A stretch of DNA of 56,121 nucleotides. Source: an uncultured Clostridia bacterium (GTDB lineage: Bacteria > Bacillota > Clostridia > UBA1381). The notes beneath the pieces are model-generated. The model saw only the letters and a list, made by a program, of their open reading frames with translations, did no database searches and had not been told where the DNA came from. Both the position numbers and the translations under genes were made by a program. The DNA is taken from contig CANQJC010000013.1 in the NCBI GenBank assembly GCA_947624165.1, positions 1 through 56,121 of the forward strand, in the 5' to 3' direction. Positions 16,028 through 53,104 of this stretch are shown piece after piece (within the stretch, counting starts at the first letter, position 1; each line of letters begins with the position of its first letter).

Positions 16028-16094
16028 ATATATATAGGGTTATGAGAATATTAACATTACACAAATCCTGATTCCGAAGGGAGGTTTTTTCACT

Positions 16095-17759: not shown

Positions 17760-17796
17760 GCTGCACGCGCGCAGCAGAAGCAAAACGATAACGAGT

Positions 17797-17830: not shown

Positions 17831-17873
17831 GACGTATACGCGCCCGCGTTATTCCAAAACCGCGCCGCATGAT

Positions 17874-18731: not shown

Positions 18732-18747
18732 TGATGCTCCTCCGATG

Positions 18748-19272: not shown

Positions 19273-19291
19273 GATATCATTCCCTTCATAA

Positions 19292-31793: not shown

Positions 31794-31862
31794 CTATGGA
31801 TTTTTACTGAAAAACGATTCGTAAAAATCATTTGCCGCTTCGCGAAAGGCGAAAGCCCTATG

Positions 31863-31891
31863 TTGAAAATATCACATTTTTATGCTATAAT
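31863..31891 (+). promoter_or_regulatory. Promoter of the giant GLUG/cohesin-like protein
   Basis: TTGAAA (31863-31868), 17-base spacer ending TGC (extended -10), TATAAT (31886-31891), about 70 bases before the start codon. Confidence 0.87.
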
Positions 31892-31961
31892 GTTGCTATA
31901 TGTATTTTGCGTATCTTCGCAATACATTTTATTTTCGCAAATGTTTATGGAGGAATTGACA

Positions 31962-34900
31962 ATGAGAAAACGAATTGTAAGTTTGACTGTTATTCTGTCG
32001 ATGGCATTTATGTTCATGCCGGTCTTTACGCCCGCCGTCTCGGCGGCGTATGTCGGTTCTGGCGGCACGGGCGGAGCGGGCGATCCGTTCCTTATCTCAA
32101 ACCGTGCGGATCTCGAAGAGCTTCGCGATTATATCAACGAAAACACCACGTATACCGGACAATACTTCCAATTGACTACGGATATTGATCTCGGCGGCGA
32201 AGAAAATCCGTGGACGCCGATCGGAGGACTTTTTAATTATCCCTTTAAAGGTACGTTCGACGGTAACGGTCACACGATAAACGGACTTTATATACACGAC
32301 GGTACGACGTATATCGGTCTGTTCGGATATGTTTCGGGCGGCACCGTTAAAAACCTTAATCTGAACGGTTCGATAGACGCAGCCTTTTCTTCCGCGCTAT
32401 ACGTCGGCGGCATCGCCGCAGCGAACGAAGGTACGATAGAAAACTGCCGCAACGCCGCCGATATTTCGGGAAACACATCTGTCGGCGGTATCGCCGGAAT
32501 GAATTCCACAGGTACGATAAAGAATTGCTCAAACTCCGGCAGCATTACATCCACAGGCTCCGCAAGCGAAGACAGCGGAGCGGGCGGTATCGTCGGTTAT
32601 AACAGCTATATTGCGGAAAACTGTTACAATACGGGAAAAATCAACGCGACGGACGGCAAGTCCCCTGCGGGCGGTGTTGCGGGAATAAACACGTCCGATG
32701 AAGGAAGCGCGGTAATAAAAAATTGTTACAACACTGGCAGCGTTACGAGCGCGGTCAGCGACAGAACGATAGGTGCGGGCGGCGTTGCCGGCAATAACGC
32801 GTCCAAGGTTCAAAACTGCTACAGCACTGGTAAAGTCACCGTAACGGAGGGCAGTCTGTCCCCTGCGGGAGGTATAGTAGGAAGAAACAACACGTCGGCA
32901 GGAACGGGAGCGGTCGAAGTAACGAATTGCTATTATCTGAGCGGTATGGCTAAAAAAGGCATCGGCAACGACGTTGTTTCCGCCCCTCCCTCAGCCGACA
33001 GCGCGGCAAAAGAAGCGGACGCATTCGAAACGCTTGCCGAAACTCTTAACGGTGGCGGCAGCGCGTGGGAGAATAACGAATTTCTTAAACGTCCGACGCT
33101 CACGGAAAATTCCGAATTTTCGGGAAAGGGCACAAAGGACGCTCCTTATCTTATCACAAACGCCGTCATTTTCGAAATTATACGCGATCACATCAACAAC
33201 GGCAACGGCGGTGAAGACGAATATTTTAAGCTGACGACAAATATAGACCTCGGCGGCAGCGATGAAAAAACATGGACGCCGATAAAGGATTTCAAGGGCA
33301 ATTTTAACGGCGGCGGCTATAAAATAAGCGGACTTTACATAAACAGCGGCGAGGAGCAGACGGGTCTGTTCGCCGTTATTGACCAAAAAGGATCTGTGGA
33401 AAATCTCGGCGTGGAAGGAACCGTATCCGGCTCCGAATATGTCGGCGGTATAGCCGGCACGTGCAGCGGCACGATAAAAAACTGCTATAACGCCGCAAAC
33501 GTAAGCGGCGGCGTTAACTGCGGCGGTATCGCGGGAGGTTTCTCCGACGGCTCGATAGAAAATTGCTACAACACGGGTATCATAAACTCGTCGGAGCCGA
33601 ACGCCAAAATCGGCGGTATCGTCGGAAGCAACTCCTCTCTCACAAGCGGCACGATAAAAAATTGCTATAACGCCGGCAATATCGGCGCGGACGGTTCTCC
33701 GTCCGGCGCAGGCGGTATCGCGGGCGAGAGTCCGTCGAGCGCGATAGAAAACTGCTATTACCTCAAAGATACTGCGGAAAACGGCATAGGCGGCGGCGAC
33801 GACGCGTCCGCCGCGGTAAAAACAAACGAGGAATTTTTATCAGGCTCGGTCGCATGGCTTTTGCAGAACAGTCAGGACACACAATACTGGGGTCAAAAGC
33901 TCGGCACGGACAATTACCCTCTCCTGACGAATGTAGATGAAAAGAAAGTATGCAAGGTCACGTTCACGACCGTCGATGATGAAAATTACGATACGCGGTA
34001 CGCGAATTACGGAAAGAATGTAAAGCTGCCCGAAACCCCGCCCGAAAAGGAAGGGTACACGTTCGAGAAATGGTCGCAGTCGGACGATGCGTCGGACGAC
34101 GAATTGGACGAGAAAACACCTATCACCGGCGACATAACAGCGCACGCGGTCGGACGCGAGCTTTTCGGCAGCAAGAACGACGCGGCGGATATTACGGCGA
34201 CCTACGGTTATAAAGAGGATCTGACTTTTAACCTCGACGAGCTCATGGCATATCAGACAGGCACGGACGGTAAGGGTAAATTCACATACAGTATAGCGAC
34301 CGACGAAAAAGGCACGAACGCAAGGATATCAGACTCCGAGTTAAAAGTCCCGAGCCTTGACGCGGGCGATTACACCATAACGGTAAAAGCCACCGAAACA
34401 ACGCCGCAGTATTCTCTGATGAGTATCGGCGATTACGGCACGGACGACGTAACGCTCACGGTAAACGTAAAAATCGCAAAAGCGGATCCGACGGTGAATG
34501 TCGAAGCGGAGGATCTGACGTATAACGGCGGTATGCAAAATCTTCTGAGCGGCACAACGAGCGGCGGTACACTGAAATATTCGTCGTCCGAGGACGGCGA
34601 ATATACGGATACCGTTCCGCAGGGCAAAGAAGCCGGAGATTACGAGGTTTGGTATAAGGTCGAGGGTGACAAAAACTTTAACGGTACCGAAGCGCGCAAA
34701 GCGGAAAACGTCAATATAAAAAAGGCGACGCCGGAGGTGACCGCGCCCAAGCCCAATACGCTTGTTTATGACGACACGGAACAGCCGCTCGTCCAAAAGG
34801 GAGAAACGAGCGGCGGCGAGATGCAATACAGTCTTGACGACAACGTATATTCAACGGACATTCCCAAGGGCAAAGACGCGATGGATTACACGGTATATTA

Positions 34901-37900
34901 CAAGGTGGTCGGCGACAGCAATTATAACGACGTGGAAGCCGATTCCATAACCGTTACGATAGCAAAGTCCAATCCTATCCTTACCGCCGCGCCCGCGGCA
35001 AAAACGGATCTGGTATATACCGGCGGCGCGCTCGAGCTTGTTACGGCGGGTACCGCTTCCGGCGGCAAGGTGATGTACAGTAAGGATAATATCGAATATT
35101 CGTATGATATCCCGACCGCCACGGACGCGGACACGTATACCGTTTGGTATAAGGTCGAGGGCGACAAGAACCATAACGACCTCGCGCCTGTTTCGATAAC
35201 CGATATAACTGTTGAAAAAGCCGATCCCGAAGCGATAGTGACTGCGAACGACATGACGTACAACGGAGAGGAACAGGATCTCGTTACCGCAACCGTGACC
35301 GGCGGCAAGCTCCTATACAGCTCTACGAGGGAAGGGGCTTATACGGAAACGCTCCCCCACGCAAAGGAAGCGAACGAATACGAAATCTGGTACAAGGTCG
35401 AGGGTGACAAAAACCATAACGACACGGAGCCGCAGTCTTTGACGGCGACGATAAAAAAAGCGTATTCAACCGTCGCGTCGGACGGCGGCGAGACGTGCTA
35501 CGGCGACACCGTAACACTGACGGCGGAGGTTTCAAAAGCTCCGTCTGCGCTTTTCAGTATTTCCGCAGCCAAGGATAAAGTCGATTTTTATCTCGGCATG
35601 ACGCCTCTCGGCTCGGCGACTGTCGAATACGACGGTCCGCTTGACGAAAGCGGTACGGCAACGCTCGACGTTACCGCCGACAAGAAATTTATGATCGGCG
35701 AAAATACGATTCGAGCCGAATACGGCGGCAGCGTGAATCTAAACGGCAGCGAAAACAACGAGATAACGTTTACGATGAACCAACGACCGCTTTTGTATAC
35801 GGTATCGGCGAGCGGTAAGGTTTATGACGGAAACGCGTCGGTCGACGTGACGCTTGATCCGATAAACAAAGTCGGAGACGACGACGTGACGCTCGACGCG
35901 GTCGGAACGGTATCATCAGCCGACGCGGGCGAGTACGCCGACGTCGATCTTACCGACGTTACCGTGAGCGGCAATCACGGAAAATATTATACCGTGGACA
36001 AGAGCGCGGACAACGTAACGCTTGACGAACAAATCACCATTACTCAAGCGGAGGGCGAAGCGTCCGTGACAATGAATGATTACGTGTGCGGCGACGACAG
36101 CGTAAACCCCGTCCCCGCGTCCGATACGAACGATATAAATAACGTGACTTATACGTACAGCGTTAAGGACGCGGACGATTATGATACAACAAAGCCGCTC
36201 CTCGCGGGCGATGCGGCGGCGGGAACGGAATACACCGTAAAAGCCGTATTCGCGGAGACAAAGAATTATAAAGCGGTCACGGTAACGGACGATTTTAAAG
36301 TAACGCACAACTGGGACGAATGGACGATTACCGAGGACCCGAGCAGGGAAACGGAGGGAAGCGCGCAGCGTGACTGTCTGAGCCGCGACAATACCGAGAG
36401 CGACGTTACCGCCGTTCCGAAGCTTGCCAATGAGACTGTATGGACGAAGGGCAAATACGTAAAACCCACGCCCGAAAAGGAAGGCTTGCAGGTATACGTC
36501 TCGGAATACGGAACGGTGACGGAGATAATACCGAAGCTGATAGTCCAAAGCATACGCATCGTATCGGAACCGACAAACACAACGGTGACGGAAGGCATGA
36601 CGCTCGATATATCGGGTCTGAGCGTCGAAGCCGTATATTCGGACGATTCGACAGCGGACATAACGTCCGACTGTAAGCTCACCTACGATACGTCGAACGT
36701 CGGCGAACAGTCCGTAACGGTCGAATACGGCGACAAGAATGAGCAGTTCAAAATAAACGTCGTGCAAAAAACAATTATCGGCATTTCAATCACGAAAAAG
36801 CCCGACAAGCGCGTTTACAATACGGGCGACAGTCTCGATACGACGGGTATGGTCGTGACCGCGCTCTTTAATAACGGCACGGAATCGGAAATCACGGTCG
36901 GTTACGAGGTCAGCGGGTATTCTCCGCAATCTGTCGGCACGCAGACGATCACGGTATCCTACGGCGGCTTCACAGGCGAATTTACCGTAACCGTCACGGA
37001 ACCGACAACGCCCGAGGGAACCGTCGAAACGCCGGTAATCGAAACATCGGGATTTTACGGCGGCAAAACCGTAACGTTATCCGACGCAACGGACGGCGCG
37101 CTCATTTACTATACTCTCGACGGCTCCGCTCCGACAATTTCGTCGACGCTTTATACCGCTCCGTTTAACGTAACGGAGACAACCGTAGTCAAGGCGGCGG
37201 CCGTCAAGGACGGCATGGAGCAAAGCCGCGCCGCGAGCGGAAAAATATCGGTGACAAAAGCCGAAAAACCCGCCGCGAGCATACCGTCGGGCGAGGTCGA
37301 AGCAGGTACGCTCATAACGCTTCAAAGCGAAACGACGGGCGCGGATATTTACTATACCACGAACGGCGAAACGCCGACGATCGAAAACGGCACGCTTTAC
37401 GACGGCTTTGCGGCGATAAACGAAAACGTAACCGTTAAGGCGATAGCCGTCAAAAACGGCTATGCGGCAAGCGACGTTACGGAAATAAGCTACACCGTCA
37501 AGGCGCAGGAGGAAAATATAATAAATCTTTCCGTGGGAACGGCGTTCGGAAAAATCGGCGATACGGTTTACATACCCGTTTATGTACGCTCGTCGAGCGA
37601 TATATCCGCTTATCGGTTTACGCTTACGTTCGATAAAACGAAATTCGCTTACGCGTCCGTCGCCGCGGCTGACGAAGAAACGCGATCGAGCATATTCACG
37701 TCGATCAGGGACGGCAGCGTGACCGTGCTTCGCAACGGCGGAACAATACAAAACGGAGAAATATGCCGTATAGGATTCAAAGTCCTTGACGGCGCGTCGG
37801 ACGGCGAATATGACATAACGGTCTCGGACGATCACATAACGGCTGAAAACGTATACAGCGAGGTACGCGCCGCGAACGGCAAAATAATACTCTCGTCCCC

Positions 37901-38246
37901 CGATGACGTTAAGGTCACCGCCGACGCGGTGATTACCGACGCAGACGGAAACACGGTAGATAAAGACAGCGCGCGGGGCAGCATAGACGCAAGCGTCGCT
38001 ATCGATGAAGCGGAGGGCGTGAGCGGCGAGCCTGTGATCGCGAATATAATCCTCGCGGTTTACGACAGAAACAACGAGCTTGTATCAATAGACACGTCGC
38101 AAGCCGATTTGTCGGACACGAGCTTCATATTCCGAAGAACGCTGAACATACCCGAAGGAGTATCGGTAGGCTCCTTAAAGCTTATGATATGGAACGGTCT
38201 CGGCGACGGTATGTCGCCGCTTGCTCCGGCAAGTAAAATGCTTTGA
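31962..38246 (+). CDS. Giant secreted multidomain surface protein (GLUG, MBG-like, Ig-like, chitobiase-C, cohesin-like)
   Basis: 2,094 residues. Signal peptide 1-28 (ends AVSA). Two blocks of GLUG repeats (GGIAG..GTIKNCYNTG type) at about 146-333 and 480-609; an InlB B-repeat-like unit (KVTFTTVDDENYDTRY..GYTFEKWS) at about 661-726; four MBG-like repeats at about 840-1166; an Ig-like domain to about 1276; a YDG-type domain (KVYDGNASVDVTLD) to about 1360; two Big_3-like domains at about 1526-1683 (ISGLSVEAVYSDDST, TTGMVVTALFNNGTE); two chitobiase C-terminal-like domains at about 1689-1848 (IYYTLDGSAPTISSTLY, IYYTTNGETPTIENGTLY); a cohesin-like domain at about 1853-1979 (GKIGDTVYIPVYV, FTLTFDKTKFAY, GFKVLDGASDGEYDI); and an extra beta domain to the end. 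No SLH, sortase or dockerin signal is seen. GGAGG is eight bases before the ATG at 31962. Adhesion or glycan binding is the likely role. Confidence 0.88.
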   Translation: MRKRIVSLTVILSMAFMFMPVFTPAVSAAYVGSGGTGGAGDPFLISNRADLEELRDYINENTTYTGQYFQLTTDIDLGGEENPWTPIGGLFNYPFKGTFDGNGHTINGLYIHDGTTYIGLFGYVSGGTVKNLNLNGSIDAAFSSALYVGGIAAANEGTIENCRNAADISGNTSVGGIAGMNSTGTIKNCSNSGSITSTGSASEDSGAGGIVGYNSYIAENCYNTGKINATDGKSPAGGVAGINTSDEGSAVIKNCYNTGSVTSAVSDRTIGAGGVAGNNASKVQNCYSTGKVTVTEGSLSPAGGIVGRNNTSAGTGAVEVTNCYYLSGMAKKGIGNDVVSAPPSADSAAKEADAFETLAETLNGGGSAWENNEFLKRPTLTENSEFSGKGTKDAPYLITNAVIFEIIRDHINNGNGGEDEYFKLTTNIDLGGSDEKTWTPIKDFKGNFNGGGYKISGLYINSGEEQTGLFAVIDQKGSVENLGVEGTVSGSEYVGGIAGTCSGTIKNCYNAANVSGGVNCGGIAGGFSDGSIENCYNTGIINSSEPNAKIGGIVGSNSSLTSGTIKNCYNAGNIGADGSPSGAGGIAGESPSSAIENCYYLKDTAENGIGGGDDASAAVKTNEEFLSGSVAWLLQNSQDTQYWGQKLGTDNYPLLTNVDEKKVCKVTFTTVDDENYDTRYANYGKNVKLPETPPEKEGYTFEKWSQSDDASDDELDEKTPITGDITAHAVGRELFGSKNDAADITATYGYKEDLTFNLDELMAYQTGTDGKGKFTYSIATDEKGTNARISDSELKVPSLDAGDYTITVKATETTPQYSLMSIGDYGTDDVTLTVNVKIAKADPTVNVEAEDLTYNGGMQNLLSGTTSGGTLKYSSSEDGEYTDTVPQGKEAGDYEVWYKVEGDKNFNGTEARKAENVNIKKATPEVTAPKPNTLVYDDTEQPLVQKGETSGGEMQYSLDDNVYSTDIPKGKDAMDYTVYYKVVGDSNYNDVEADSITVTIAKSNPILTAAPAAKTDLVYTGGALELVTAGTASGGKVMYSKDNIEYSYDIPTATDADTYTVWYKVEGDKNHNDLAPVSITDITVEKADPEAIVTANDMTYNGEEQDLVTATVTGGKLLYSSTREGAYTETLPHAKEANEYEIWYKVEGDKNHNDTEPQSLTATIKKAYSTVASDGGETCYGDTVTLTAEVSKAPSALFSISAAKDKVDFYLGMTPLGSATVEYDGPLDESGTATLDVTADKKFMIGENTIRAEYGGSVNLNGSENNEITFTMNQRPLLYTVSASGKVYDGNASVDVTLDPINKVGDDDVTLDAVGTVSSADAGEYADVDLTDVTVSGNHGKYYTVDKSADNVTLDEQITITQAEGEASVTMNDYVCGDDSVNPVPASDTNDINNVTYTYSVKDADDYDTTKPLLAGDAAAGTEYTVKAVFAETKNYKAVTVTDDFKVTHNWDEWTITEDPSRETEGSAQRDCLSRDNTESDVTAVPKLANETVWTKGKYVKPTPEKEGLQVYVSEYGTVTEIIPKLIVQSIRIVSEPTNTTVTEGMTLDISGLSVEAVYSDDSTADITSDCKLTYDTSNVGEQSVTVEYGDKNEQFKINVVQKTIIGISITKKPDKRVYNTGDSLDTTGMVVTALFNNGTESEITVGYEVSGYSPQSVGTQTITVSYGGFTGEFTVTVTEPTTPEGTVETPVIETSGFYGGKTVTLSDATDGALIYYTLDGSAPTISSTLYTAPFNVTETTVVKAAAVKDGMEQSRAASGKISVTKAEKPAASIPSGEVEAGTLITLQSETTGADIYYTTNGETPTIENGTLYDGFAAINENVTVKAIAVKNGYAASDVTEISYTVKAQEENIINLSVGTAFGKIGDTVYIPVYVRSSSDISAYRFTLTFDKTKFAYASVAAADEETRSSIFTSIRDGSVTVLRNGGTIQNGEICRIGFKVLDGASDGEYDITVSDDHITAENVYSEVRAANGKIILSSPDDVKVTADAVITDADGNTVDKDSARGSIDASVAIDEAEGVSGEPVIANIILAVYDRNNELVSIDTSQADLSDTSFIFRRTLNIPEGVSVGSLKLMIWNGLGDGMSPLAPASKML
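34480..35460 (+). repeat. Four tandem MBG-like coding repeats
   Basis: About 245 bases each, at roughly 34480, 34726, 34969 and 35221. Each encodes a variant of TYNG..QLV..GTTSGG..YS....Y....P..K.A..Y.VWYKVEGDKN.ND. Copies 1, 3 and 4 share long near-identical DNA around TGGTATAAGGTCGAGGG, pointing to recent duplication or gene conversion. Confidence 0.8.
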
Positions 38247-38255: not shown

Positions 38256-38296
38256 TAAAAAGGACGATTGCATTTGCAATCGTCCTTCTTATTTTT
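38256..38296. terminator. Bidirectional terminator between the two giant surface loci
   Basis: Perfect 12-bp stem AGGACGATTGCA/TGCAATCGTCCT with a 2-base loop, A run on one side and T-rich sequence on the other. It ends the plus-strand giant gene and the minus-strand leader-peptide gene. Confidence 0.88.
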
Positions 38297-38308: not shown

Positions 38309-38449
38309 TCAGATCTTGCTTCTTAAAGAATCGTCGATAGGCTTTTCGGGAACGTGGGGAACTTCGTCAAACAATCCCCCGCCCGTCACCTGCTCCAATT
38401 CATCCACATCGATCTCAAGAATTTTCTTTTCTTCTTCTTTTTTACACAT
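38309..38449 (-). CDS. Small double-glycine leader peptide, candidate substrate of the C39/NHLM exporter
   Basis: 46-codon gene with an excellent ribosome site (AAGGAGG, 9 bases before ATG), starting 17 bases after the stop of the giant SLH gene and ending at the terminator. The peptide opens with a Lys/Glu-rich segment, MCKKEEEKKILEIDV, then DELEQVTGGG: the hydrophobic/acidic spacing ahead of the Gly-Gly pair (residues 23-24) is that of leaders cut by C39 peptidases. Cleavage there would release a 21-22-residue product, GLFDEVPHVPEKPIDDSLR plus SKI, rich in Pro and Asp, with no Cys. No lanthionine, radical-SAM, cyclodehydratase or other modifying enzyme is nearby. Two ABC exporters and an adaptor on the same strand supply the matching secretion machinery. 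I do not recognise the mature part; bacteriocin, pheromone or surface ligand are all possible. Confidence 0.82.
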   Translation of the reverse strand: MCKKEEEKKILEIDVDELEQVTGGGLFDEVPHVPEKPIDDSLRSKI

Positions 38450-38466
38450 TTTATATATCCTCCTTC

Positions 38467-41400
38467 TTATTTTACCGAATCATCGTAACGCTGCGTCAAT
38501 GCCGCGGCTTCCGCGCGCGTGGCGTTATTCGCGGGCCGAAGCGTAGCGTCCTCCGTAGCGTCCTCGTAACCGCTCATTATTCCCGAGCCGCACGCCCACC
38601 GTATCGCAGGTATCGCGTATTCGCTTATCTGCGGCGCGTCCTTGTAGCTCATTAAATCTGTATTCTCTCCCGCAGACACGTCAACGCCGGAATACTTGGC
38701 GTATCTCCAAAGCATCGCCGCAAGCTGCTCGCGCGTTATCAAATCGTCGGGACCGAACGTACCGTCCTCATAACCCGACACGATCCCGTTCTCCGTACCC
38801 CATGCGATGTACGGGGCGTAATACATATCGGCGTTCACATCGCCGTACTGCGTTTCGCCGCTCGGAGTTTCGGCGTTTGCCATACGTCCCAGAACAGTTA
38901 TAAACATACCTCTCGTAATATTCGAGTCAGGCTCGAACATATCCTCGCTTACGCCTGAGAAGTATCCCTTCTCCGAAGCGTAGCTTACCGCGTTGAAGAA
39001 CCAGTCGGTTGAATTTACATCCTTGAACCATATTTCAGGCTCGGTTCCCTGAGACGGCGCGTTTGTCGCTGTCGGAGTTGAGGTAGGCTCGGGAGCGGCG
39101 GTAGGCTCCGGCGTCGCCGTAGGTTCGGGCGTCGCCGTAGGCGTGGGAGCGGCGTTTCCTCTCGATGAATGTTTCTTCGGGGTTTCCTCATCTTCTTCCT
39201 TCGCTTTGACCGTCACAGTTATATCGGGTATGGCGTAGCCGGACGGCGTAACGTTACCGTGTATGACCGTCGTACCCTCGGACAAGGCTTTAAGCGTCGT
39301 CTTGTCAAACGCCGCGACGGACGCGTCGTCCGTTCCGAGTGCCGCGCCCATGGATTCGTTGAGATTGCTCGGCTCGCACGTTATGTTGAATTCCATTGTA
39401 TCGCCCTCGACAAGCTCTATTGTCTCGGGGAATTCCTCGCCGTTAAGAAGCAGCTTGACAGGCGCGGACGCAATCAGACGCAGGCTTTCGCCGTCAGTGT
39501 TATACGTGCCGTCTTTATCCGCTCCCACCAGCAGACAATCCACAAATCCGAATTTGTTGAATGTCTCGGGGATCACGTCCAAATCGAGCGAGAAGGTCTT
39601 GCTTTCACCGGCGTTTATTTCGCCGATCTCCGTATTCGCCCAGTCGCGCTCGTCGGACGAATAATCGATTGCCATATCGTAGGGACCCGTGAATACGACG
39701 TTCAGCGTGTCGTCCGCTTTTGAGGGAGCGTTGCCCTTATTCGTAAGCGTACAGTCGACGTGATATCCTTTCGAATCCTGATAAGCGTCGACGCCGTCTA
39801 TCATATACACCGGCTTTTCCTCAAGCTTTTCGCTCTCGTAGCTCGACGTGTTGCTCATGCCGCCCTCCTGAGCGATCGCGATAAAGCTCATGCCCTTTAC
39901 TCCGCTTTCGGGAGCCGTCCATTTTAATCTGTGTTTGTTTGTACAGCCCGGAAGCAGCTTATCATCAAATTGTATCGTATCGATCAAATCGCCCTGAACG
40001 CCGTTCTTCGCTTCGTAAACATTTACCGTGTATCCGTCGGCATATGTAAGACCCGCGTTTTTCACGTCCACCGTCATTTCCGTCTCTTCGCCCGCGACCG
40101 GCGTTTCGTTCGCGAGCGAAATATCCGTAACGTCAACGGCTCCGCAGGGCTTCAGAGACGACGCCTTAAGATCAAAGTCGGTTATTTTGACGGGAGCGTT
40201 TTCGTCGTCCGTAAACTCCTGGTTATAGCTGTTATATAATACAATGAGGTTTCCGCTGCCGTCTATCACGGCGTTCGGCTCGTCTGTAAACGCTTCGGTA
40301 TGCGTCAGTCTGTACGGCGGAGCCCACGAGCAGCCCAATTGGTCGGATATACTCTGTTCGGGCGTGATCGCGGCGGCGTCCTCGTTTTGTATCAGCGCGG
40401 TCGCGTATACCTCGCGGCACTGTATCGGATTGCCGTCCTCATCGATTCCCTTTGAAGTAGGCTGCGTCCATACGACATATATATCGTCGCCGTCCGTTAC
40501 CGCCTTGAAATCAGCCATGTAGCGCGACGCGCTCGGATTATCGGCGGGAACGGAAACATACGAATACAGCGATGATTCAATATCCTTTGTATAGCTGCCC
40601 TTCGCGTCCTTCAGATATTCCTCTTTTATTGTACCGTCGTCGTTTACGCCTTCCTTGACGAGCGAGGATATATCAATGTATGCGATACTGTTTTCGTCTC
40701 TGTACCAGAAAAGCTTCGTGTCGACGCACATCGACTCGAGATCATCGCCCTGCGCGCCCTCGGGTATCTTATCCTTTGTTCTGACAAACTGCGGCAAGGT
40801 GTCGCTCTTGTTGTCGTTTGTTATCCTTACGGGTACGTATGTCGAATGATCCGCAAAATCATAGCACTGTATGAACATTTCCCTGTCCGACGTGGTGTCG
40901 TTCGACGAATCCATATCTATCGTGTACGCGTATACCGCGATACCGTTGTATGTTATCGCCGTAAAGTCCGCTATGTTCGGAGCTTCGTTTATTTCGGGAA
41001 TAGACGACGACAGGAATCTCTGACCGTGCACCATATCTATAAGCTTTTGCTTTTCATCCTCCTTGCTGCCGTCGTTGTTGCTGTCGGCGACCTCGTTGTC
41101 ATAGTAATAGTCGTCCAGCCATCTGCCCTCCTCCTTTGAGTAGAGCATGTATACTATACCGCACTTGTTCGTGTAGGAATTTGCGATGTCCTCCGCTGTG
41201 CCGGACGCATCCGTCTTTACATAATATACTATTCTGTCGCCCGTTTTATCGTCATAGACGGAAGTCGGAGTATAGTCGTAATACTCGTCGTTCGTCAGAC
41301 GCTTTTCATCGCTGACGGTATATGCGGCGGGATCTATCACGGCGGTATAAACCTCAAGATTCTTGAGGTAATTTGCCGAATTCTCCGTGGTCTGCTTGTC

Positions 41401-44400
41401 GGGATCGCTCGACAGCCACGAAATCATTACCTTGCCGTCGTCGATCTCACAGATACTCGGCTGGAAGTCCGCTTTACTGTCCTGCTGAACGACTTTCGGC
41501 TCGCTCCACGTTCCGTTCTTGTAAACGGTGTATTTGAGCACGGTCCTTTCCGTGTCGGCGCGCGTGTTGTCGGAATCTATAAACGCCATAAACACGCTGC
41601 CGTCGCTGAGCTTTATGAGCTGAGTATCGGGGTGCTCGTAAGCGTCCTCGACAAACGTCCATGTTTTGTCCACATCAAACGCCGACATAAGCTCCGCGTC
41701 TCCTCCCGGCATCCACTTGCTGTCTTTATTTGAGTACGGTTTCCTTACCGTGAACGTCGGCTTTTCCTCTTCCGCGCTCATAAGCGAGACTGTGTTCGCG
41801 TTTGCGTTCGCCGTATTTTTCTTCAATGCGGGATTTGTCGGTTCCATCTCGGAATACTCCTTGAACGAACCGAATTTGATGTCAGGGAATTTATATGACA
41901 ACGGTACTGTGAATAGGAAGAGATCGATCCATATGTTCGCCGTAAACAGGAGATCCGCGCCAAAGTCGGAAACAAACGGCGAAGGCTCATACATAGCCAT
42001 AGCCGTAAACGTACCGCCGCCGCGTATGCCTATCGTTCCGGCGAGACCTATTCCGACGTATATCGCGACCTGGACAGTCGCCTGAACGCCGCCGTGAAAT
42101 TCTCCGAGATAGTTTTCAAATTCTACCGTGGCTTTCTTGGCTATGTCGTATGAGACGGTCGAGTTTGTGAGATCGCTCTGCGCGCCCAGAAAACCGAGGA
42201 AGTTTCCGTTCAGTTCAAGACCGAAATATGCCGGTATAAATACTACGGGAAGGATCGTGTACCACGTCAGCTTTACGCCAAGGCTCGCGCCCAGGTAAGC
42301 ACCCGCTCCCGTCAGCACCGCGTCGGTATTGTGTGCGCCGTTGTTGGGATTTACGATATTCGCGTATGTAAAGTCAATATAGAAGCCTATCTGCACGTCT
42401 ACCTTCCATGTCGGAGCACCGAGTGCCATTCCGCCGTTCATGGAATTTGCGGGAACATTCTTGAAGGCTTCTTTGTACGATGTCGCAAGTCCCTCCGAGA
42501 ATGATTTTATCGGATGCGCCAGCTGGAATATATCCTGGAAGTACGCGCCCGTACCGCCGGCAAATTTGGTCATGTGCATACCGCCTATCGTATCGGCAAG
42601 CTGCAAGGGACTGAAGCCGACATACATTCTGTATCCCGTAGCCGTCTTTATCGAGCCGACGGACACAAACGGCAAATCGAAACGCATCGCCGTGTCTCCG
42701 AGGAACGGAAGACTGTCGAACGACATATTTACGGGAGATTCGAGATGCTGGATCACGGGAACGTCGTTAAGCGGATTGGATATGAACGTCAGGCCGGTGA
42801 ACACGTCGCTGTACGTCATGGTGTTCATCGCCTTTTCTCTTTCCTTTATCGCTTCTTCATCGTCCTCCGTCTTGCTCTTGTCGACAGCCGACTCCTGCTG
42901 AAGCTCCGACGATTTCGCGCTTATTCCGTGAGAACGGTCGGTCGTCACGCGCATAAACAGCTCGTAGTCCTCCGCGACTTTGTCCAGCTCGACGTCCGCG
43001 CTGAATGTGCCGTCCTCGTTCTTTTTCGCGTCAAATGACGCGACCTCCAGATTTGTCTTGGGATTGTACACGATGAATTTGACGTCGGTCAAATTCTCCG
43101 GCGTGTTGGGCGTTTCGACAAGCTTTAATTCATCGCCGCTCTCGTCCTTTTCCACTTTTGTGTACGTGACCGTTCCGACCTGTTTTGCCGTCACGGTAAC
43201 CACGTCGCCCTTCATTATGACAATGCTGCCTTGGCTCAGTCCCTCGGTGCCGTCGGACGATTGAACGGAAACCTCAATATTGTTTATTATACTTCCGTTC
43301 TCCGTATTTATAAACTTCTGTCCGAGATTCTGCGTGCATACGGGTACATTTCTTCTCGACGTACCCTTATTGTCGTTGTTGACAAACAGGACCTCTTTTG
43401 TCTCGGGAGACGCGGGCATAAGCTCCATTTCCTCGAGCAGATCCTGATCGTTCATGGATATCATGTATTTCACGTAATGATGCGTGCTCGAACCGGCGGT
43501 ATTATTCATTGCACGGAAGGGCGGTACGGTGAAGTTTCCGTTCTCATCGACGATTGCAAACTGACCCCCGAAATTCACCAGCGCGCCCTTTGCGGGGTTT
43601 GAATTTGTATAGTCGACGCCATGCGTACTCATATTAAACGTCGGGCTGTAAACGCTGCCCGTAACGGACTGATACATATCGCCCGCCGATTCGGTAGCGT
43701 ATGACAGCGTTATGATATTTCCGTTCTTGCCGCCCTGCGCTTCATGGAAGAACACGTCTCCGTAGTATATCTTTCCGGCATTCTGCGGCTCGCGCCACGT
43801 CGGATATACCTTGTCGCCCGCGTTTTTCGCCATACGCACGGATAACGGGTATATCTTTGAGTATACGGGATCCGGCTCTATAACGTAATCGTAATACTCA
43901 ACGCCGTCCACAACTGTTTCGGCGCGGTTCGTCGAAGCAAGAAGTCCGTATGAAGTATCGAATTTCGACAGCTCCGATTTTTTGACGCGCAGCGTCAAAA
44001 CGTCGTCCTTTGCCTGGAACACGGGCGTAAGCTCGTAGTACGAATACTGAAGCCTGTGGTTTAAGTCCTCGTCGAGGTACGCTTCGCCGTTCGCGTCGTA
44101 CAGAATGATCTTATCAGTGTATTTTGTGTCGGATTCGTTTATTTTATATCTTACTTTTACTCCGACGGGTTTGAACGCCGACTTATATTTGTCGCGCATG
44201 ACCGTGGAGAGCTTTATAACGTCGCCTCGGTAGTAAGTATAGTCCGTGGTCGACGAAATATCTTTCGCGGACTTGCTCAGTACGAGATAGCCGTAATTTT
44301 CATCGGATACGTTTATACGTATCTTTGACGGACGTTTCGCGAATTCGGGCTTCAATTCTATTCTGCCCCTTATACCCGAATTGCCTGTCTGATTAATCCA

Positions 44401-46554
44401 ATTATCGTTTACGTTGTTCTTCTCAAAATAGATATAATCCCCGTTATTGTATACCCATTCGGGGCTTATACTGAACGAATGCACATCCTTGCCGTCGTCC
44501 TTGGATTGCGAGAAAACCTCCTTCGTTTTGCCGTCCTTCACGATGCTTACGCTCTTTAAGTACGTGTAAGGAGTTTTTGTGTTTCCTCCTATCCTCTGTG
44601 TCATGCCGATGCTGTTTTTGCCGTCCTTCGTATAGCGGATTATCTGCTTGTTATTTGTATTTACCGCTCCCTCCAGCGCGAGATATGTCGCGTCCGAGAA
44701 GGAATTGTTCTTGCTTCTGTTACCGTTCTCGTCAAGGAAATCAAGTGAGTCCGCGTCGTTGAGATTTACGACGAACGGTCTCAATATCTGTTTCATGCTT
44801 GTTATCCACAGATTATTGCAGTCCGGGCAGCCCGCCTGATTGAAAAACGATATTCTGTACGGATCCCAGAACGGGCAAAGAATATTTCTTTTTACGTATC
44901 CGCTGCTGCCAAAGGTTTCCTTGCTGTCATACGCGTCTTCATCGTTCGTGCTCCAAACGTCGATATTCGAAGAATACGAACCGACAAACGCGACGACTAT
45001 ATTGGCGCAGTCTCCGGTTCTTTTCCAATCTACCTGAACGCCAGCGACATGCGCGTTTCTGTACTTTGTGTCCTTGGTTATCTCCCATGACGCGGCGACC
45101 GTTCCGATATATCTGTCGCCAAAAATATTCCGCGCGAACCATCCGGCGTTGTCCTTCCACATCAGGTTCCAGTTTTCGCCGTTACTGCCGCTCGCGCTGT
45201 ATTTGTTATCGCTGTTGCTATGTTCGGAGGTTCCCGTCAATTTCGGTGAAGATATATCTATGCTGTCGCCGAGAACAATATCGCCAACGCTGTCGCTCTC
45301 CTGTACTCCGCCGGAAAAAAGCGACGCGCCGCCGTCGGCTGTCCCCGCGGTACCGTCTATCGTAACGGTTGCGTCGCCGCCGTCGATCGCGCACATCTGG
45401 GAGGAGGTGAGCTTTAAATTGAAATCCGCGCTCCCCGTGATATATTCGGTGCGTATAGGTATTTCGATTCTGCGCGTGTCGATACCTATCGGGAACACAA
45501 CGTCCATGTCTACGGGCGAGAAATCGCGTCCCACCTGCGCGGTACCGTTCTCTGTCGTAAGATGAGCGGCGGCGATAGTGTTAAGCGCGCCGTCTCTCTT
45601 GATTTCGACCGTTACGCTTTCTCCCGACGCTTCGTAAGCGTCCTCCGTAAAGCCTATTTTCGAAGGCTCCTGCTTTTCATCGTCTATTATCGTCATCGAG
45701 CAGCTTGAAGACGCGCTGTTCGTCGTCGTACCCTGCGGCGCGCCGAGCATAAGGAAGAAATAACGGTTGCCGTCGCCGTCGTTGTTATCCTCAACGTCTA
45801 TGGCTATGTACTTTTCATTTTCTCCCTCGGCAAAATCGACCGTGAGCGTCGCGCCGAGCACAACGTTTGTCATAACGTTCGCCATTTGCTGTATCTGCTG
45901 CATTGTATCGGTCGTCGAGGTAACTACCTGTGTGTCGGCTGACATGCCGGTATATATCTCTTTCGCCGCTTGGAGCGTACTCGACGCGCTCTCGCCCTCG
46001 GCGGGAAGTGCTTCGTTATCCTTCTCTTCCTCGCTCGAGAGCACTCCGCTCTGCTCCTCCAGATAATTTATCGCTTCCTGCATACCCTGCTGAGTTGCCT
46101 TACGCATTTCCTCGTCGCCGTCGAGCATTTCGGCGTATTCTTCTTCCGTTTTCAGCTCGGATTCCGTATACTCCTCGCCCTCCATACGTTCGAGAAGCGA
46201 CTCGTTGCCTTCGGGATTCACGACCTCCGCGTCGCTTGACAATACCGAAATTTTGTAATCCTTGCCGTACTTTGCGGTCAAATCGGAAATTTTTATCGTC
46301 GCCGACGACGCCGAAGCGCAGTCGCCGCCGCGTCCGAGACGCAGTATGTAGCGTTCGTTCGCGCCTTCTTTCAGCTGCGCGTTGACGGCGGTGAGATAAA
46401 ACACATCGCTTGACAATATTTCCTCGTCAATTTCGATTTCCGGGATATATACATCCTCGGCTTCCGCTTTTGCCGGAATTGTAATTACGGGAGCGATGAG
46501 CGATGCGGTCAGAATTATGCTCAGGCTCCTCTTTAACTTTGATATTAACTTCAT
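38467..46554 (-). CDS. Giant SLH-anchored surface protein with Calx-beta, propeller-like and CARDB-like domains
   Basis: 2,695 residues. Signal peptide 1-30 (ends IPAKAEA). About 45-290 is a Calx-beta-like domain split by a Glu-rich, probably coiled-coil insert (about 110-215); a second Calx-beta is at about 297-405 (VEIKRDGALNTIAAAHLTT). Long beta-rich regions follow, with a carboxypeptidase-regulatory-like stretch near 955-1040 and an unusual hydrophobic Gly-rich segment at about 1368-1568 (GAGAYLGASLGVKLTWY). About 1618-2118 looks like a beta-propeller (KLSDGSVFMAFIDSD, VMISWLSSD). Two CARDB-like domains (about 2128-2368), a Big2-like domain (about 2371-2455), a TPEPTATPEPTA linker and three SLH modules (about 2508-2695) complete it. 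AAGGAGG precedes the ATG. It has its own extended -10 promoter and is directly followed by the double-glycine peptide gene. It is expected to be anchored to the cell wall; the ligand is unknown. Confidence 0.88.
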   Translation of the reverse strand: MKLISKLKRSLSIILTASLIAPVITIPAKAEAEDVYIPEIEIDEEILSSDVFYLTAVNAQLKEGANERYILRLGRGGDCASASSATIKISDLTAKYGKDYKISVLSSDAEVVNPEGNESLLERMEGEEYTESELKTEEEYAEMLDGDEEMRKATQQGMQEAINYLEEQSGVLSSEEEKDNEALPAEGESASSTLQAAKEIYTGMSADTQVVTSTTDTMQQIQQMANVMTNVVLGATLTVDFAEGENEKYIAIDVEDNNDGDGNRYFFLMLGAPQGTTTNSASSSCSMTIIDDEKQEPSKIGFTEDAYEASGESVTVEIKRDGALNTIAAAHLTTENGTAQVGRDFSPVDMDVVFPIGIDTRRIEIPIRTEYITGSADFNLKLTSSQMCAIDGGDATVTIDGTAGTADGGASLFSGGVQESDSVGDIVLGDSIDISSPKLTGTSEHSNSDNKYSASGSNGENWNLMWKDNAGWFARNIFGDRYIGTVAASWEITKDTKYRNAHVAGVQVDWKRTGDCANIVVAFVGSYSSNIDVWSTNDEDAYDSKETFGSSGYVKRNILCPFWDPYRISFFNQAGCPDCNNLWITSMKQILRPFVVNLNDADSLDFLDENGNRSKNNSFSDATYLALEGAVNTNNKQIIRYTKDGKNSIGMTQRIGGNTKTPYTYLKSVSIVKDGKTKEVFSQSKDDGKDVHSFSISPEWVYNNGDYIYFEKNNVNDNWINQTGNSGIRGRIELKPEFAKRPSKIRINVSDENYGYLVLSKSAKDISSTTDYTYYRGDVIKLSTVMRDKYKSAFKPVGVKVRYKINESDTKYTDKIILYDANGEAYLDEDLNHRLQYSYYELTPVFQAKDDVLTLRVKKSELSKFDTSYGLLASTNRAETVVDGVEYYDYVIEPDPVYSKIYPLSVRMAKNAGDKVYPTWREPQNAGKIYYGDVFFHEAQGGKNGNIITLSYATESAGDMYQSVTGSVYSPTFNMSTHGVDYTNSNPAKGALVNFGGQFAIVDENGNFTVPPFRAMNNTAGSSTHHYVKYMISMNDQDLLEEMELMPASPETKEVLFVNNDNKGTSRRNVPVCTQNLGQKFINTENGSIINNIEVSVQSSDGTEGLSQGSIVIMKGDVVTVTAKQVGTVTYTKVEKDESGDELKLVETPNTPENLTDVKFIVYNPKTNLEVASFDAKKNEDGTFSADVELDKVAEDYELFMRVTTDRSHGISAKSSELQQESAVDKSKTEDDEEAIKEREKAMNTMTYSDVFTGLTFISNPLNDVPVIQHLESPVNMSFDSLPFLGDTAMRFDLPFVSVGSIKTATGYRMYVGFSPLQLADTIGGMHMTKFAGGTGAYFQDIFQLAHPIKSFSEGLATSYKEAFKNVPANSMNGGMALGAPTWKVDVQIGFYIDFTYANIVNPNNGAHNTDAVLTGAGAYLGASLGVKLTWYTILPVVFIPAYFGLELNGNFLGFLGAQSDLTNSTVSYDIAKKATVEFENYLGEFHGGVQATVQVAIYVGIGLAGTIGIRGGGTFTAMAMYEPSPFVSDFGADLLFTANIWIDLFLFTVPLSYKFPDIKFGSFKEYSEMEPTNPALKKNTANANANTVSLMSAEEEKPTFTVRKPYSNKDSKWMPGGDAELMSAFDVDKTWTFVEDAYEHPDTQLIKLSDGSVFMAFIDSDNTRADTERTVLKYTVYKNGTWSEPKVVQQDSKADFQPSICEIDDGKVMISWLSSDPDKQTTENSANYLKNLEVYTAVIDPAAYTVSDEKRLTNDEYYDYTPTSVYDDKTGDRIVYYVKTDASGTAEDIANSYTNKCGIVYMLYSKEEGRWLDDYYYDNEVADSNNDGSKEDEKQKLIDMVHGQRFLSSSIPEINEAPNIADFTAITYNGIAVYAYTIDMDSSNDTTSDREMFIQCYDFADHSTYVPVRITNDNKSDTLPQFVRTKDKIPEGAQGDDLESMCVDTKLFWYRDENSIAYIDISSLVKEGVNDDGTIKEEYLKDAKGSYTKDIESSLYSYVSVPADNPSASRYMADFKAVTDGDDIYVVWTQPTSKGIDEDGNPIQCREVYATALIQNEDAAAITPEQSISDQLGCSWAPPYRLTHTEAFTDEPNAVIDGSGNLIVLYNSYNQEFTDDENAPVKITDFDLKASSLKPCGAVDVTDISLANETPVAGEETEMTVDVKNAGLTYADGYTVNVYEAKNGVQGDLIDTIQFDDKLLPGCTNKHRLKWTAPESGVKGMSFIAIAQEGGMSNTSSYESEKLEEKPVYMIDGVDAYQDSKGYHVDCTLTNKGNAPSKADDTLNVVFTGPYDMAIDYSSDERDWANTEIGEINAGESKTFSLDLDVIPETFNKFGFVDCLLVGADKDGTYNTDGESLRLIASAPVKLLLNGEEFPETIELVEGDTMEFNITCEPSNLNESMGAALGTDDASVAAFDKTTLKALSEGTTVIHGNVTPSGYAIPDITVTVKAKEEDEETPKKHSSRGNAAPTPTATPEPTATPEPTAAPEPTSTPTATNAPSQGTEPEIWFKDVNSTDWFFNAVSYASEKGYFSGVSEDMFEPDSNITRGMFITVLGRMANAETPSGETQYGDVNADMYYAPYIAWGTENGIVSGYEDGTFGPDDLITREQLAAMLWRYAKYSGVDVSAGENTDLMSYKDAPQISEYAIPAIRWACGSGIMSGYEDATEDATLRPANNATRAEAAALTQRYDDSVK

Positions 46555-46664: not shown

Positions 46665-48779
46665 TTAAATCTGTCCTTTCGTAAGCTTTCCGAACAGTTC
46701 GCTGTTCTTTATGAGGTCGTCGTAAGGGCCCTCCGCGGCGACGCGTCCCTTGTCTATCAAAAGAATTTTGTCGCAATTTTTAATTGTGGAAAGTCTGTGA
46801 GCGACTATTATCCTTGTACATTCAAGCTTACGGACGCTTTCCATGACCTTTTCCTGAGCGGTCTCGTCGAGAGCGGACGTGGCTTCGTCAAAAATCAGTA
46901 CGGCGGGTTTTGAAATCAGCGCGCGCGCTATAAGTATACGCTGACACTGACCGCCCGAAAACGAATGATTTTCGGGATTTACCGAAGTGTACAAGCCCAT
47001 CGGCATCGCTTTTATATCGTCTTCGAGACCCGCCGCGCGCACAGCGTCCCAAACCTCTTCCATCGAAGCGTCGGGCTTCGTTATCACAATATTGGAGAAA
47101 ATGTCACCCGACATAAGTCCCGAATTTTGAAGGACCGTACCGATCCGTCTGCGGTAGTTTCTCAAATTAAGCTCGCGTATATCGAAACCGTCCATATAAA
47201 CGCTGCCGTCCTCCGGCGTTTCAAAGCCGAGCAAAAGTCTTATCAGCGTGGACTTTCCGCAGCCCGAAACACCCGCGATACCCACGCTTTCCCCGCTTTT
47301 TATATGCGCGGAAATTCCGTTCAGCACGTAAGGCATATCCTTGGAATAACGAAAATAGACGTTCGATATGTCGATCTCGCCATTTAAGCTGTCCGGCGTT
47401 ATCTTATCGGCATATTCCTCACATTCCGCTGTCAGGACGCGCTTCATGACCGAATAAGACGAATGGAACGCTCCGATCGCTTCGATAACAGCCGACGCGC
47501 TCGACACGGACGCGATATACGCGCCGTAGGCTGCGGAAAAGGCTATGTAATCCGAAGCGGACGCGCCGCGTCCGAGCAGGAATATCAACGCGGTCGACAA
47601 TACAGAAAGAAGCTTGTAAAACGCCGGCGCGTATTTGAGGTAAAACGGTTTGTCCGCGCATATGGCCGCGTCGCGGTATTTTTCGCTCCACCGTCCGAGT
47701 ACGCGCGCTTCCGCGCCGTTGAGCTTTATCTGCTCCATGCCGGAAAAGACCTCGTAGCCGAAGCCCGACATCTTTGAAAGAGAATTGCTGTAATTCTTGT
47801 TCCAGCGGGAATTGAGCGTGCCCTCCGCGCATATCATTACGGCAAGAACTATCGTGACCAATATCACCCAGCCGAACAACGCGGGCGCGTATATTTTTAT
47901 TTGTATCAGGTAAAGCATCGAAAGTACAATTCCGATAAACGCGCTTATGCTCCTTACGGAGATGATTTCCGATATATTTGAAAATTCCGTTATCATGCGC
48001 GACAATTCGCCGGATCTTGAGTCTCTGAAAAAGTCGGTCTTTATGCCAAGCACCCGTGAAAATATGCCGCTCTGCACGTGCGCGCCGACGCGAACCATTG
48101 AATTTGTCAGAGCGAGCGACTGCAAAAGACGCATGACCGCCGCGACCGACACCGCAGAAAGTATGAGAGCAGCCGAAGAAAGCGTTCCCGAAGCGTTTCC
48201 CGTCGGTATGACGCGCGCGAATATAAAGCTGTTCGCCCACGGCAGCAGCATACCGGCAAGTATCGTGAACACGCTTGCGGCAAGAACGGTGATTTTATCC
48301 CTTACGGACGTCGACTTGAATATAAACTTGAACAAATCCGATTCAGACACGCGCTCCGTACCCATGGTCTTGTAAAAGCATATCGCCTCGCCCGTGAACA
48401 TACCGGCGTTTTTTGACGTTATTTTTACCGGTGTTTTCTCGTCGATGTACTTGCAGCCGCCGTTCACCGCCGGTATTACCGCAAGCCATTTTCCGTCGTT
48501 CGTATACGCGAGCAACGGAAGCGCGCACACTCTGTACCAGTCCGGCTCAAGCTCCGTTCTTCTGATTTTTATAAACAGCTTTTCCTCTATGTACCTCAGC
48601 TGCTCCTCAAACGGAAGCGACGCGTCCGCGCGTCCTTTTACGTTCAAAAATTTTAAGATCGCGTTAATGCCGTCTGCTTTCTCGTTTTTATGTATGGCTG
48701 AGTAAAGATTGTCGTACATTTTCTGTTCCGCGTCTCGGTTCCTCCGTTTCAGACGCTCTTTTTCCGACTGTGCGTTCAT
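46665..48779 (-). CDS. NHLM/NHLP-type bacteriocin export ABC transporter, permease/ATPase without C39 peptidase
   Basis: 704 residues. The N-terminal ~150 residues replace the peptidase with an accessory domain (DWYRVCALPLLAYTNDG, GMFTGEAICFYK), as in the second ABC subunit of NHLM systems. About 165-430 is the six-helix membrane domain (FRDSRSGELSRMITEFSNISEI, SGMEQIKLNGAEARVL). The ATPase domain has Walker A GVSGCGKST (about 503-511), signature FSGGQCQR, Walker B VLIFDEATSALDE and the H-loop IVAHRLST, all intact. It overlaps the C39 transporter by four bases (ATGA), so the two half-transporters are translationally coupled and could form a heterodimer. Confidence 0.92.
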   Translation of the reverse strand: MNAQSEKERLKRRNRDAEQKMYDNLYSAIHKNEKADGINAILKFLNVKGRADASLPFEEQLRYIEEKLFIKIRRTELEPDWYRVCALPLLAYTNDGKWLAVIPAVNGGCKYIDEKTPVKITSKNAGMFTGEAICFYKTMGTERVSESDLFKFIFKSTSVRDKITVLAASVFTILAGMLLPWANSFIFARVIPTGNASGTLSSAALILSAVSVAAVMRLLQSLALTNSMVRVGAHVQSGIFSRVLGIKTDFFRDSRSGELSRMITEFSNISEIISVRSISAFIGIVLSMLYLIQIKIYAPALFGWVILVTIVLAVMICAEGTLNSRWNKNYSNSLSKMSGFGYEVFSGMEQIKLNGAEARVLGRWSEKYRDAAICADKPFYLKYAPAFYKLLSVLSTALIFLLGRGASASDYIAFSAAYGAYIASVSSASAVIEAIGAFHSSYSVMKRVLTAECEEYADKITPDSLNGEIDISNVYFRYSKDMPYVLNGISAHIKSGESVGIAGVSGCGKSTLIRLLLGFETPEDGSVYMDGFDIRELNLRNYRRRIGTVLQNSGLMSGDIFSNIVITKPDASMEEVWDAVRAAGLEDDIKAMPMGLYTSVNPENHSFSGGQCQRILIARALISKPAVLIFDEATSALDETAQEKVMESVRKLECTRIIVAHRLSTIKNCDKILLIDKGRVAAEGPYDDLIKNSELFGKLTKGQI

Positions 48780-52913: not shown

Positions 52914-52951
52914 GACAATCCTCCGTTTCCGAGATGAACATATATATAATA

Positions 52952-52980
52952 ATTTTATCACACGGTTCGACATAATTCAA
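52952..52980 (-). promoter_or_regulatory. Promoter of the lipoprotein-HlyD-ABC-ABC operon
   Basis: Minus strand TTGAAT (52980-52975), 17-base spacer, TAAAAT (52957-52952), about 40 bases ahead of the lipoprotein start. Confidence 0.8.
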
Positions 52981-53040: not shown

Positions 53041-53072
53041 ACAAAAAGAGCGTATCGTTAAATAATACGCTC
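53041..53072 (-). terminator. Terminator of the ychF-GT2-mannosyltransferase group
   Basis: GAGCGTAT/ATACGCTC stem with a 9-base loop followed by TTTTT on the minus strand, 32 bases past the mannosyltransferase stop. Confidence 0.82.
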
Positions 53073-53104
53073 CCAAAACCGTTTTTTACCTGTCTGTTTT
53101 TATA

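Follow-up and report, generated by a model that had tools for sequence, protein, structure and literature searches.

Does the short reading frame just behind a giant surface-protein gene in an uncultured Clostridia bacterium encode an exported peptide and, if so, what might that peptide do? We have analysed it within the window (i.e. the whole stretch of 56,121 nucleotides) and in the genomes of relatives.

A small gene with a double-glycine leader

The elements of the gene are as follows.

38309-38449, (-) strand: 46-codon double-glycine peptide precursor gene, an open reading frame conserved in relatives
38458-38465, (-) strand: Shine-Dalgarno sequence AAGGAGGA, 8 nt ahead of the peptide ATG
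38378-38449, (-) strand: leader, residues 1-24, with V-4, L-7, E-8 and I-12 before Gly-Gly
38312-38377, (-) strand: predicted mature peptide GLFDEVPHVPEKPIDDSLRSKI, 22 aa, placed by the leader register and the alignment of relatives

The reading frame starts with ATG and is intact, and its product is MCKKEEEKKILEIDVDELEQVTGGGLFDEVPHVPEKPIDDSLRSKI. The first-pass annotation had claimed an overlooked small gene with a strong ribosome site, and both are borne out. At E ≤ 0.01, 17 of the 70 family genomes contain relatives with this leader (16 of them do so at E ≤ 1.1e-7); the relatives are under purifying selection, so that the gene is beyond chance. We looked in the relatives for loss of the Gly-Gly motif or of the frame, and found neither.

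The residues V-4, L-7, E-8 and I-12 before Gly23-Gly24 match the rules for leader recognition by C39 domains, as given in excerpts of PMC6363468 and PMC6959990; the match was also checked in an alignment of 21 members. From this register the cut is predicted to fall after Gly24, making the third Gly the +1 residue of a 22-residue mature peptide, and those relatives that have Gly-Gly only agree with this placement. The double-glycine leader proposed earlier is thus confirmed, while the mature part, previously given as 21-22 residues, is now fixed at 22 by the predicted cut.

The mature peptide of the window has three Pro, no Cys and a charge of -2. In all 32 loci the mature part lacks Cys, with a length of 20-25 residues and a charge between -5 and +3. 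There is no match to the window peptide above cut-off in Pfam or NCBIfam, in keeping with the earlier remark that it resembles no familiar class of bacteriocin or pheromone. It scores 13.7 bits with the bacteriocin signal model TIGR01847 (cut-off 15.7), and 14.8 and 14 with the pheromone families ComC and BlpC (cut-offs 20.4 and 70 respectively). With a leader of 24 residues and no match to such families it also falls outside the NHLP and Nif11 precursors.

The operon and its exporter

Further features lie upstream of the peptide gene on the same strand, and a hairpin lies beyond it.

38467-46554, (-) strand: giant surface protein, 2695 aa, with Sec-type signal (by eye), Calx-beta, propeller, CARDB and three SLH domains (Pfam; alignment of 21 giants)
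46665-48779, (-) strand: peptidase-less ABC exporter subunit (ABC2), NHLM_micro_ABC2-like (TIGR03797, 581 bits, below the cut-off of 709)
48776-50878, (-) strand: C39 peptidase/permease/ATPase (ABC1), NHLM_micro_ABC1-like (PF03412, 120 bits; TIGR03796, 699 bits, below the cut-off of 853)
50888-51754, (-) strand: HlyD-type adaptor, NHLM_micro_HlyD-like (TIGR03794, 132 bits, below the cut-off of 156)
51777-52973, (-) strand: periplasmic-binding-protein-like gene (Peripla_BP_6; PF13458, 94 bits), first of the operon, with a lipoprotein signal by eye
52952-52980, (-) strand: promoter-like site at the operon head, no evidence by itself (7 found in the region, 7.0 expected)
53046-53074, (-) strand: terminator-like hairpin of the gene upstream of the operon, weak alone (13 found, 9.5 expected)
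38260-38287, strand unassigned (reported on the + strand only): terminator-like 12-pair hairpin that separates the peptide gene from the convergent gene 31860-38246 (1 found, 0.5 expected)

The order of transcription would be Peripla_BP_6, HlyD, ABC1 (with the C39 domain), ABC2, giant and peptide. The peptide gene lies 17 bp behind the stop codon of the giant and ABC2 ends 110 bp before the giant, while the genes from ABC2 to Peripla_BP_6 lie within 25 bp of one another. From this spacing and the flanking hairpins we infer that the genes from Peripla_BP_6 to the peptide probably form one transcript.

The NHLM families are the best match of all three exporter proteins, each below its curated cut-off, i.e. 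the proteins are related but diverged. The C39 domain has Cys18, His91 and Asp107, which we take to be the catalytic residues of the family. The C39 exporter that had been placed 10 kb upstream on the same strand is the gene 48776-50878 (-), about 10.3 kb away, and the host genome (G000, 82% complete) contains one C39 match, the one in this operon. Together, the leader rules, these residues and the presence of just one C39 gene suggest that the precursor is cleaved and exported by this protein. Pfam recognized no RiPP modification enzyme among the 30 window reading frames scanned (the peptide included; the others were judged by eye), which agrees with the earlier statement that none is encoded nearby.

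The whole order from lipoprotein to peptide, on one strand, is found in eight genomes (the window, G001, G015, G020, G068, G075, G083 and G090). The exporter operon is convergent to the giant-peptide pair in G007 (contig C2) and G011, and on a different contig in G005 and G018. G007 has a second pair (L031) apart from its exporter operon, and the pairs L031, L032 and L042 have no adjoining exporter gene with their upstream DNA in view; the contigs of the second copies L035, L036 and L038 end at their giants. A Peripla_BP_6 homologue precedes HlyD in all 17 loci where that DNA is present, that of L087 being cut by a contig end and that of L037 split in two frames.

Downstream, the convergent gene 31860-38246 (+) encodes 2128 aa with Glug, Big_3, CHB_HEX_C and Cohesin domains, and its homologues are convergent to the peptide gene in L031-L034. 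Its C-terminus has a W-N/D-S/G-L-x-x-M-x-P-L tail, and similar tails were seen by eye in L074 (4768-8400), L128 (2472-10022) and L096 (564-8234); the tail may be a C-terminal domain for sorting or folding that these proteins have in common. Positions 8254-22555 of the window hold a pectin-use neighbourhood, with a rhamnogalacturonan lyase of family 11, a PcRGLX-like protein, an FGGY sugar kinase and another SLH protein.

The giant surface protein

Pfam finds three SLH stretches, one Calx-beta and one CARDB match in the giant of the window. Two regions need their coordinates here.

38479-39027, (-) strand: three SLH domains, approximate (Pfam SLH, 113 bits, 3 stretches)
40588-41640, (-) strand: conserved core, residues about 1639-1989, with a predicted sialidase-type beta-propeller fold (AlphaFold2 model; Foldseek)

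In the alignment of 21 giants the most conserved parts include residues ~50-400 (containing Calx-beta) and about 1640-1900. An AlphaFold2 model of residues 1100-2120 has a mean pLDDT of 66.5 and a pTM of 0.51. The propeller is its most confident part, the pLDDT of the core blocks being mostly 72-91 with dips to 54; residues 161-530 of the model, before the propeller, have block pLDDT values of 26-74 and were left uninterpreted as poorly modelled. A Foldseek search of the PDB for the core gave sialidases as the best matches (2w38 at E 1e-7; 9dku_A with a TMt of 0.53), and the modelled core thus fits a sialidase-type propeller, a fold with six blades. A sequence search found no solved relative of the core (best E 0.85). 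Asp-box motifs are lacking in ten of the 21 giants, the one in the window included, and the other 11 have one or two that are scattered; for this reason we do not claim enzyme activity for the core.

The giant of the window carries SLH domains, as S-layer proteins do (113 bits, three stretches). SLH domains also anchor proteins that form no lattice, and having them does not make an S-layer. Three of the 21 giants (L127, L128 and L130) lack SLH both by repeat pattern and by Pfam at E ≤ 0.001, and all three keep Calx-beta. We therefore regard a giant Calx-beta/propeller protein, and not an S-layer gene, as what the peptide is tied to: the tie to the giant that the first-pass annotation had drawn is conserved, but the S-layer as its essential link is rejected.

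Distribution of the gene pair

A search of 61 genomes with the window peptide gave 13 places at E ≤ 1e-3, plus many weak matches that were taken for another protein. An alignment of 14 peptides, searched against the 70 family genomes, matched at 22 places (E ≤ 0.01) that are spread over 17 genomes. Twenty of these are intact peptide genes right behind a giant (or behind the 3′ part of a giant at a contig end), one is a remnant (L040) and one is L070 of G029, where a 956-codon gene comes between the giant and the peptide. The remnant (G005:C27, 4741-4842) is half a peptide joined to the debris of a gene like 31860-38246, and was left out of the counts. Twenty-five genomes of the order outside the family gave no peptide match at E ≤ 0.001.

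Of 391 genomes sampled evenly across the class, nine match at E ≤ 1e-4, including six outside the family that are spread over five other families. A contig scan gave 20 loci, comprising ten already known, five new true ones (L107, L108, L110, L111 and L118) and five false ones in Lentisphaeria (L113-L117). The latter were dropped; L115-L117 match inside reading frames of 296-350 aa, and L113 and L114 have no small Gly-Gly reading frame covering the match. The Lentisphaeria protein, like the weak matches with frames of ~350 codons, presumably resembles PurM. Among the named records with peptide loci are uncultured Clostridia and Oscillospiraceae MAGs as well as Candidatus Ornithomonoglobus merdipullorum, from whose name we tentatively place the family as Monoglobaceae. 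The hosts belong to several clostridial families, most of which are known through metagenomes.

In 31 of 32 intact loci the peptide gene starts between -38 and 100 bp from the 3′ end of a giant on the same strand, some of these giants being cut by a contig end and the gap of -38 becoming about +10 with a later ATG; the exception is L070. The host genome itself has a second peptide gene (G000:C30:10197-10337, L038), behind an SLH giant at 10355-14266 within which the contig ends, and this arrangement recurs with conserved flanks in G001:C61 and G015:C54. Two giants appear to be split over two frames, by frameshift or assembly error, with an intact peptide gene behind them (L126:10158-17895 of G205:C26, and L037:10154-17285 of G011:C16). 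A diverged version in G004 (L131:1231-8438, G004:C527) was excluded from the locus counts. It has a short HlyD-like gene, ABC1 at 38% and ABC2 at 36%; next come a small gene that by eye is sigma-factor-like and one of 460 aa, and then a peptide with a Gly-Ala leader, which lies upstream of an SLH giant.

Peptide, exporter and giant occur together in the same genomes. The adaptor model TIGR03794 matches 21 of the 70 family genomes at E ≤ 1e-8, none above cut-off, and these include 16 of the 16 with a strong peptide match against 5 of the 54 others (Fisher P 8e-12). The middle part of the giant matches 19 of the 70 at E ≤ 1e-20, i.e. 15 of the 16 against 4 of the 54 (P 8e-11); as the species are related, both P values are a guide only. 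The giant of G084 was missed by this search because it is split over contigs.

The exceptions are as follows. The adaptor occurs without a strong peptide match in G029, G033, G062, G064 and G092. G029 does carry a divergent peptide, and in G033 the contig ends just past ABC2, with giant and peptide not found in the genome. The G064 exporter (L083:3789-4109, G064:C2) is NHLM-like and near a 106-aa Gly-Gly precursor that is Nif11-like by eye, probably an ordinary RiPP-type cluster. Giants outside the strong-peptide genomes are those of G004, G025, G029 and G093; G025 gave no match to C39, adaptor or peptide. G205 has the peptide, with no C39 found in a genome 84% complete. Two giants in peptide genomes, L095 (G029) and L096 (G001), have no peptide of the Gly-Gly pattern behind them.

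Selection and coinheritance

Thirteen peptides of the same type as that of the window give dN/dS values of 0.22 in the leader, 0.09 in the mature part and 0.15 overall, with pairs pooled and not independent, and the second Gly aligned on the mature side in three rows. Purifying selection is thus strongest in the mature part. G068 and G084, which are of different genera, encode an identical peptide through genes with 14 synonymous differences.

The end of the giant gene appears to move with the peptide gene. In G015 a segment of 886 bp comprising the end of the giant and the peptide gene is 97.4% identical between two loci, the identity of their giants being 29-34% over the rest. In G001 532 bp are 90% identical between giants that otherwise share 32%; giant tail and peptide are thus homogenized or exchanged together. 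The two G015 peptides differ at only 3 of 46 residues, so that the peptide tolerates a much changed giant.

The mature peptides were assigned by eye to types A (FDNVPRVPxxxIDDxL), B (SIKNVQYTxTxxISDDTxSKI), C and D. Three changes of type, the minimum, suffice on a tree of 16 giants to which each genome contributed one pair (G012 and G084 partial, G072 left out, D a single row); A, B and C each form one clade, A with support 89/97. A quicker tree of 28 giants (25 of them labelled, and L127, L129 and L130 unlabelled) that adds second copies and other families again needs three changes, with D nested in A. The exporter tree needs six, and 38 of 200 shuffles are as low, while type A by itself is clustered there too (3 changes; 11 of 500 shuffles as low). 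Long branches between classes are flagged in both trees.

Distances in 14 genomes agree with this. Those of the mature peptide correlate with those of the giant at r 0.84 (0.79 given the exporter), and with those of the exporter at 0.58 (0.38 given the giant, P 0.015). Leaving out the three most distant genomes gives 0.91 (partial 0.88) for the giant and 0.50 (partial 0.09) for the exporter. For the last 16 residues of the leader the correlations are 0.36 with the giant and 0.28 with the exporter. Mature-peptide type therefore tracks the phylogeny of the giant better than that of the exporter.

A possible partner for the giant

The reading that we favour, at a little under an even chance, is that the locus encodes a two-part surface system, in which an unmodified peptide is exported to bind the cognate giant, either as its dedicated ligand or as a dedicated factor in its assembly. 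One transcript would encode a binding-protein-like lipoprotein, a HlyD-type adaptor, a C39 ABC exporter, a second ABC subunit, the giant and finally the peptide. The leader would dock on the C39 domain and be cut after Gly24, and the 22-residue peptide would be exported unmodified. The giant would leave by the Sec route and be anchored at the wall by its SLH domains, although some relatives would have a different anchor. The peptide would bind the giant outside the cell, as adjacency, coinheritance and matched types suggest.

We count for this partnership the adjacency in 31 of 32 loci, the co-occurrence, the matched types, the purifying selection, the pairs free of an exporter and the single C39 gene of the host. 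Against it we count linkage, the clustering of type A on the exporter tree, the mismatch in G015 and the two-component genes near some loci. The main weakness is the first of these; since the genes of peptide and giant adjoin, the match of types could come from linkage without contact.

A more specific proposal, which we consider distinctly unlikely, is that the C39-exported peptide would be an extracellular assembly factor of the giant, perhaps imitating and exchanging with its N-terminal segment. When the mature peptide was placed on its giant in 25,570 ways, the best position for 13 loci of classes A and D (out of an alignment of 21 giants) was the post-signal segment at residue 37, IPEIEIDEEILS, but 20 of 300 shuffled peptides score as high. 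For the types taken singly 85 (A) and 82 (D) of 300 shuffles do so. Type B peptides have no N-terminal match on the giant (113 of 300 as high), and in an earlier check of four genomes the best match was at the N-terminus of the giant for the window and elsewhere for the other three. The similarity is suggestive only.

Other possible roles

The main rival, unlikely in our view, is that the peptide is a pheromone sensed by a histidine kinase of the AgrC/ComD type, with a LytTR regulator controlling the operon and the giant as its output in the manner of ComABCDE. LytTR-type regulators and GHKL kinases adjoin the locus in G075 and in G083 (where one kinase directly follows the peptide gene). In G007 and G005 they neighbour the giant, in G001 the convergent gene, and a lone regulator is present at a contig end in G068. 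The DNA fetched around the loci contains 8 GHKL kinases where 1.3 are expected, a count that includes one weak match and neighbouring species that are not independent. Yet kinases are near the locus in just five of the 16 peptide genomes, none is on the contig of the window, and the mature part is almost uniform between genera, unlike pherotypes. A kinase sensor of the genus is found in ten of the 70 genomes, among them seven of the 16 with the peptide; it is unlinked in G000, G011, G015 and G018, and present in G010 and G063, neither of which gave a peptide match, and in G033, which has the exporter alone. The G075 sensor is in three of the 70, including G076, which lacks the peptide. The distribution of the genus kinase weakens the case for a dedicated sensor like ComDE.

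It is improbable that the peptide acts as a surface-matrix or self-assembling component, in which case the giant would simply be its neighbour in the operon and have a related function at the surface. Small Gly-Gly proteins of Synechococcus that are exported by a C39 protein are needed for biofilm, and some form fibrils, according to excerpts of PMC4997328 and PMC9981879; the strong ribosome site at the end of the window operon would also suit such a role. The mature part is just 20-25 residues long in the 32 loci, however, and action as matrix would not alone explain why peptide type tracks giant type.

An unmodified bacteriocin, or a toxin delivered or neutralized by the giant, is very improbable. 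Double-glycine leaders with NHLM-like exporters are typical of bacteriocins, and some of the 21 members have weak matches to bacteriocin families. But unmodified bacteriocins are usually strongly cationic, and the mature parts here, with charges ranging from -5 to +3 over the 32 loci and of -2 for the window peptide, are not; moreover the mature part is conserved rather than diversifying, the window peptide has no match above cut-off, and no small immunity gene was noticed at a fixed place, genes under about 76 codons being mostly unlisted. Least probable of all is an ordinary RiPP precursor with its modification enzyme elsewhere in the genome, for although NHLM-like exporters often serve RiPPs (excerpts of PMC2887384) and a related one in G064 lies near a Nif11-like precursor, the mature part is free of Cys in 32 of 32 loci and sparse in Ser/Thr in type A, and no such enzyme is among the 30 window reading frames scanned.

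Relation to known systems

The register of V-4, L-7, E-8, I-12 and Gly-Gly, and the C39 ABC exporter with Cys, His and Asp, are common to this locus and to ComA-ComC, LahT and PCAT1-CtA. Here, by contrast, the peptide gene comes last in the operon of a giant, its mature part has no family match above cut-off, and there is no fixed sensor gene. The trio of adaptor, peptidase-ABC and peptidase-less ABC is that of the NHLM export system (TIGR03794/03796/03797; excerpts of PMC2887384), but all three window proteins score under the curated cut-offs and no modification enzyme is among the window reading frames scanned. The same source gives average leader lengths of 83 or 70 residues for NHLP or Nif11 precursors, compared with 24 here, and of 24 residues for the TIGR01847 microcins, as in the window.

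Closest in action are the EbfG proteins of Synechococcus elongatus (EbfG1-4, with PteB; excerpts of PMC4997328 and PMC9981879), small proteins with a Gly-Gly motif that are exported by a C39 protein; one of them is located both at the cell surface and within the matrix, and fibrils are formed by others. These excerpts name no giant partner gene, the organism is a cyanobacterium, and the comparison is by description, not sequence. The pneumococcal peptides BriC, VP1 and Rtg (excerpts of PMC7595303) also have Gly-Gly leaders, and some are without a known receptor and some linked to biofilm; there several alleles exist between strains, and the excerpts do not describe them behind surface-protein genes. 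Searches among open-access papers turned up no title or abstract with a description of a Gly-Gly peptide paired with a giant surface protein, and the gene pair is real, conserved and apparently undescribed.

Implications

Other small genes that have been missed may be found by looking just behind giant Calx-beta/propeller genes. The locus further suggests that the substrate of an NHLM-like exporter need not be a RiPP. If the peptide were indeed an assembly factor, this would be a secretion-coupled, peptide-assisted pathway of surface assembly in Gram-positive bacteria. Short Gly-Gly peptides are usually filed as bacteriocins or pheromones. One Gly-Gly family tied to a giant, in several families of Clostridia and with matched types, provides a testable third role, that of a peptide whose synthesis and export serve a single surface protein.
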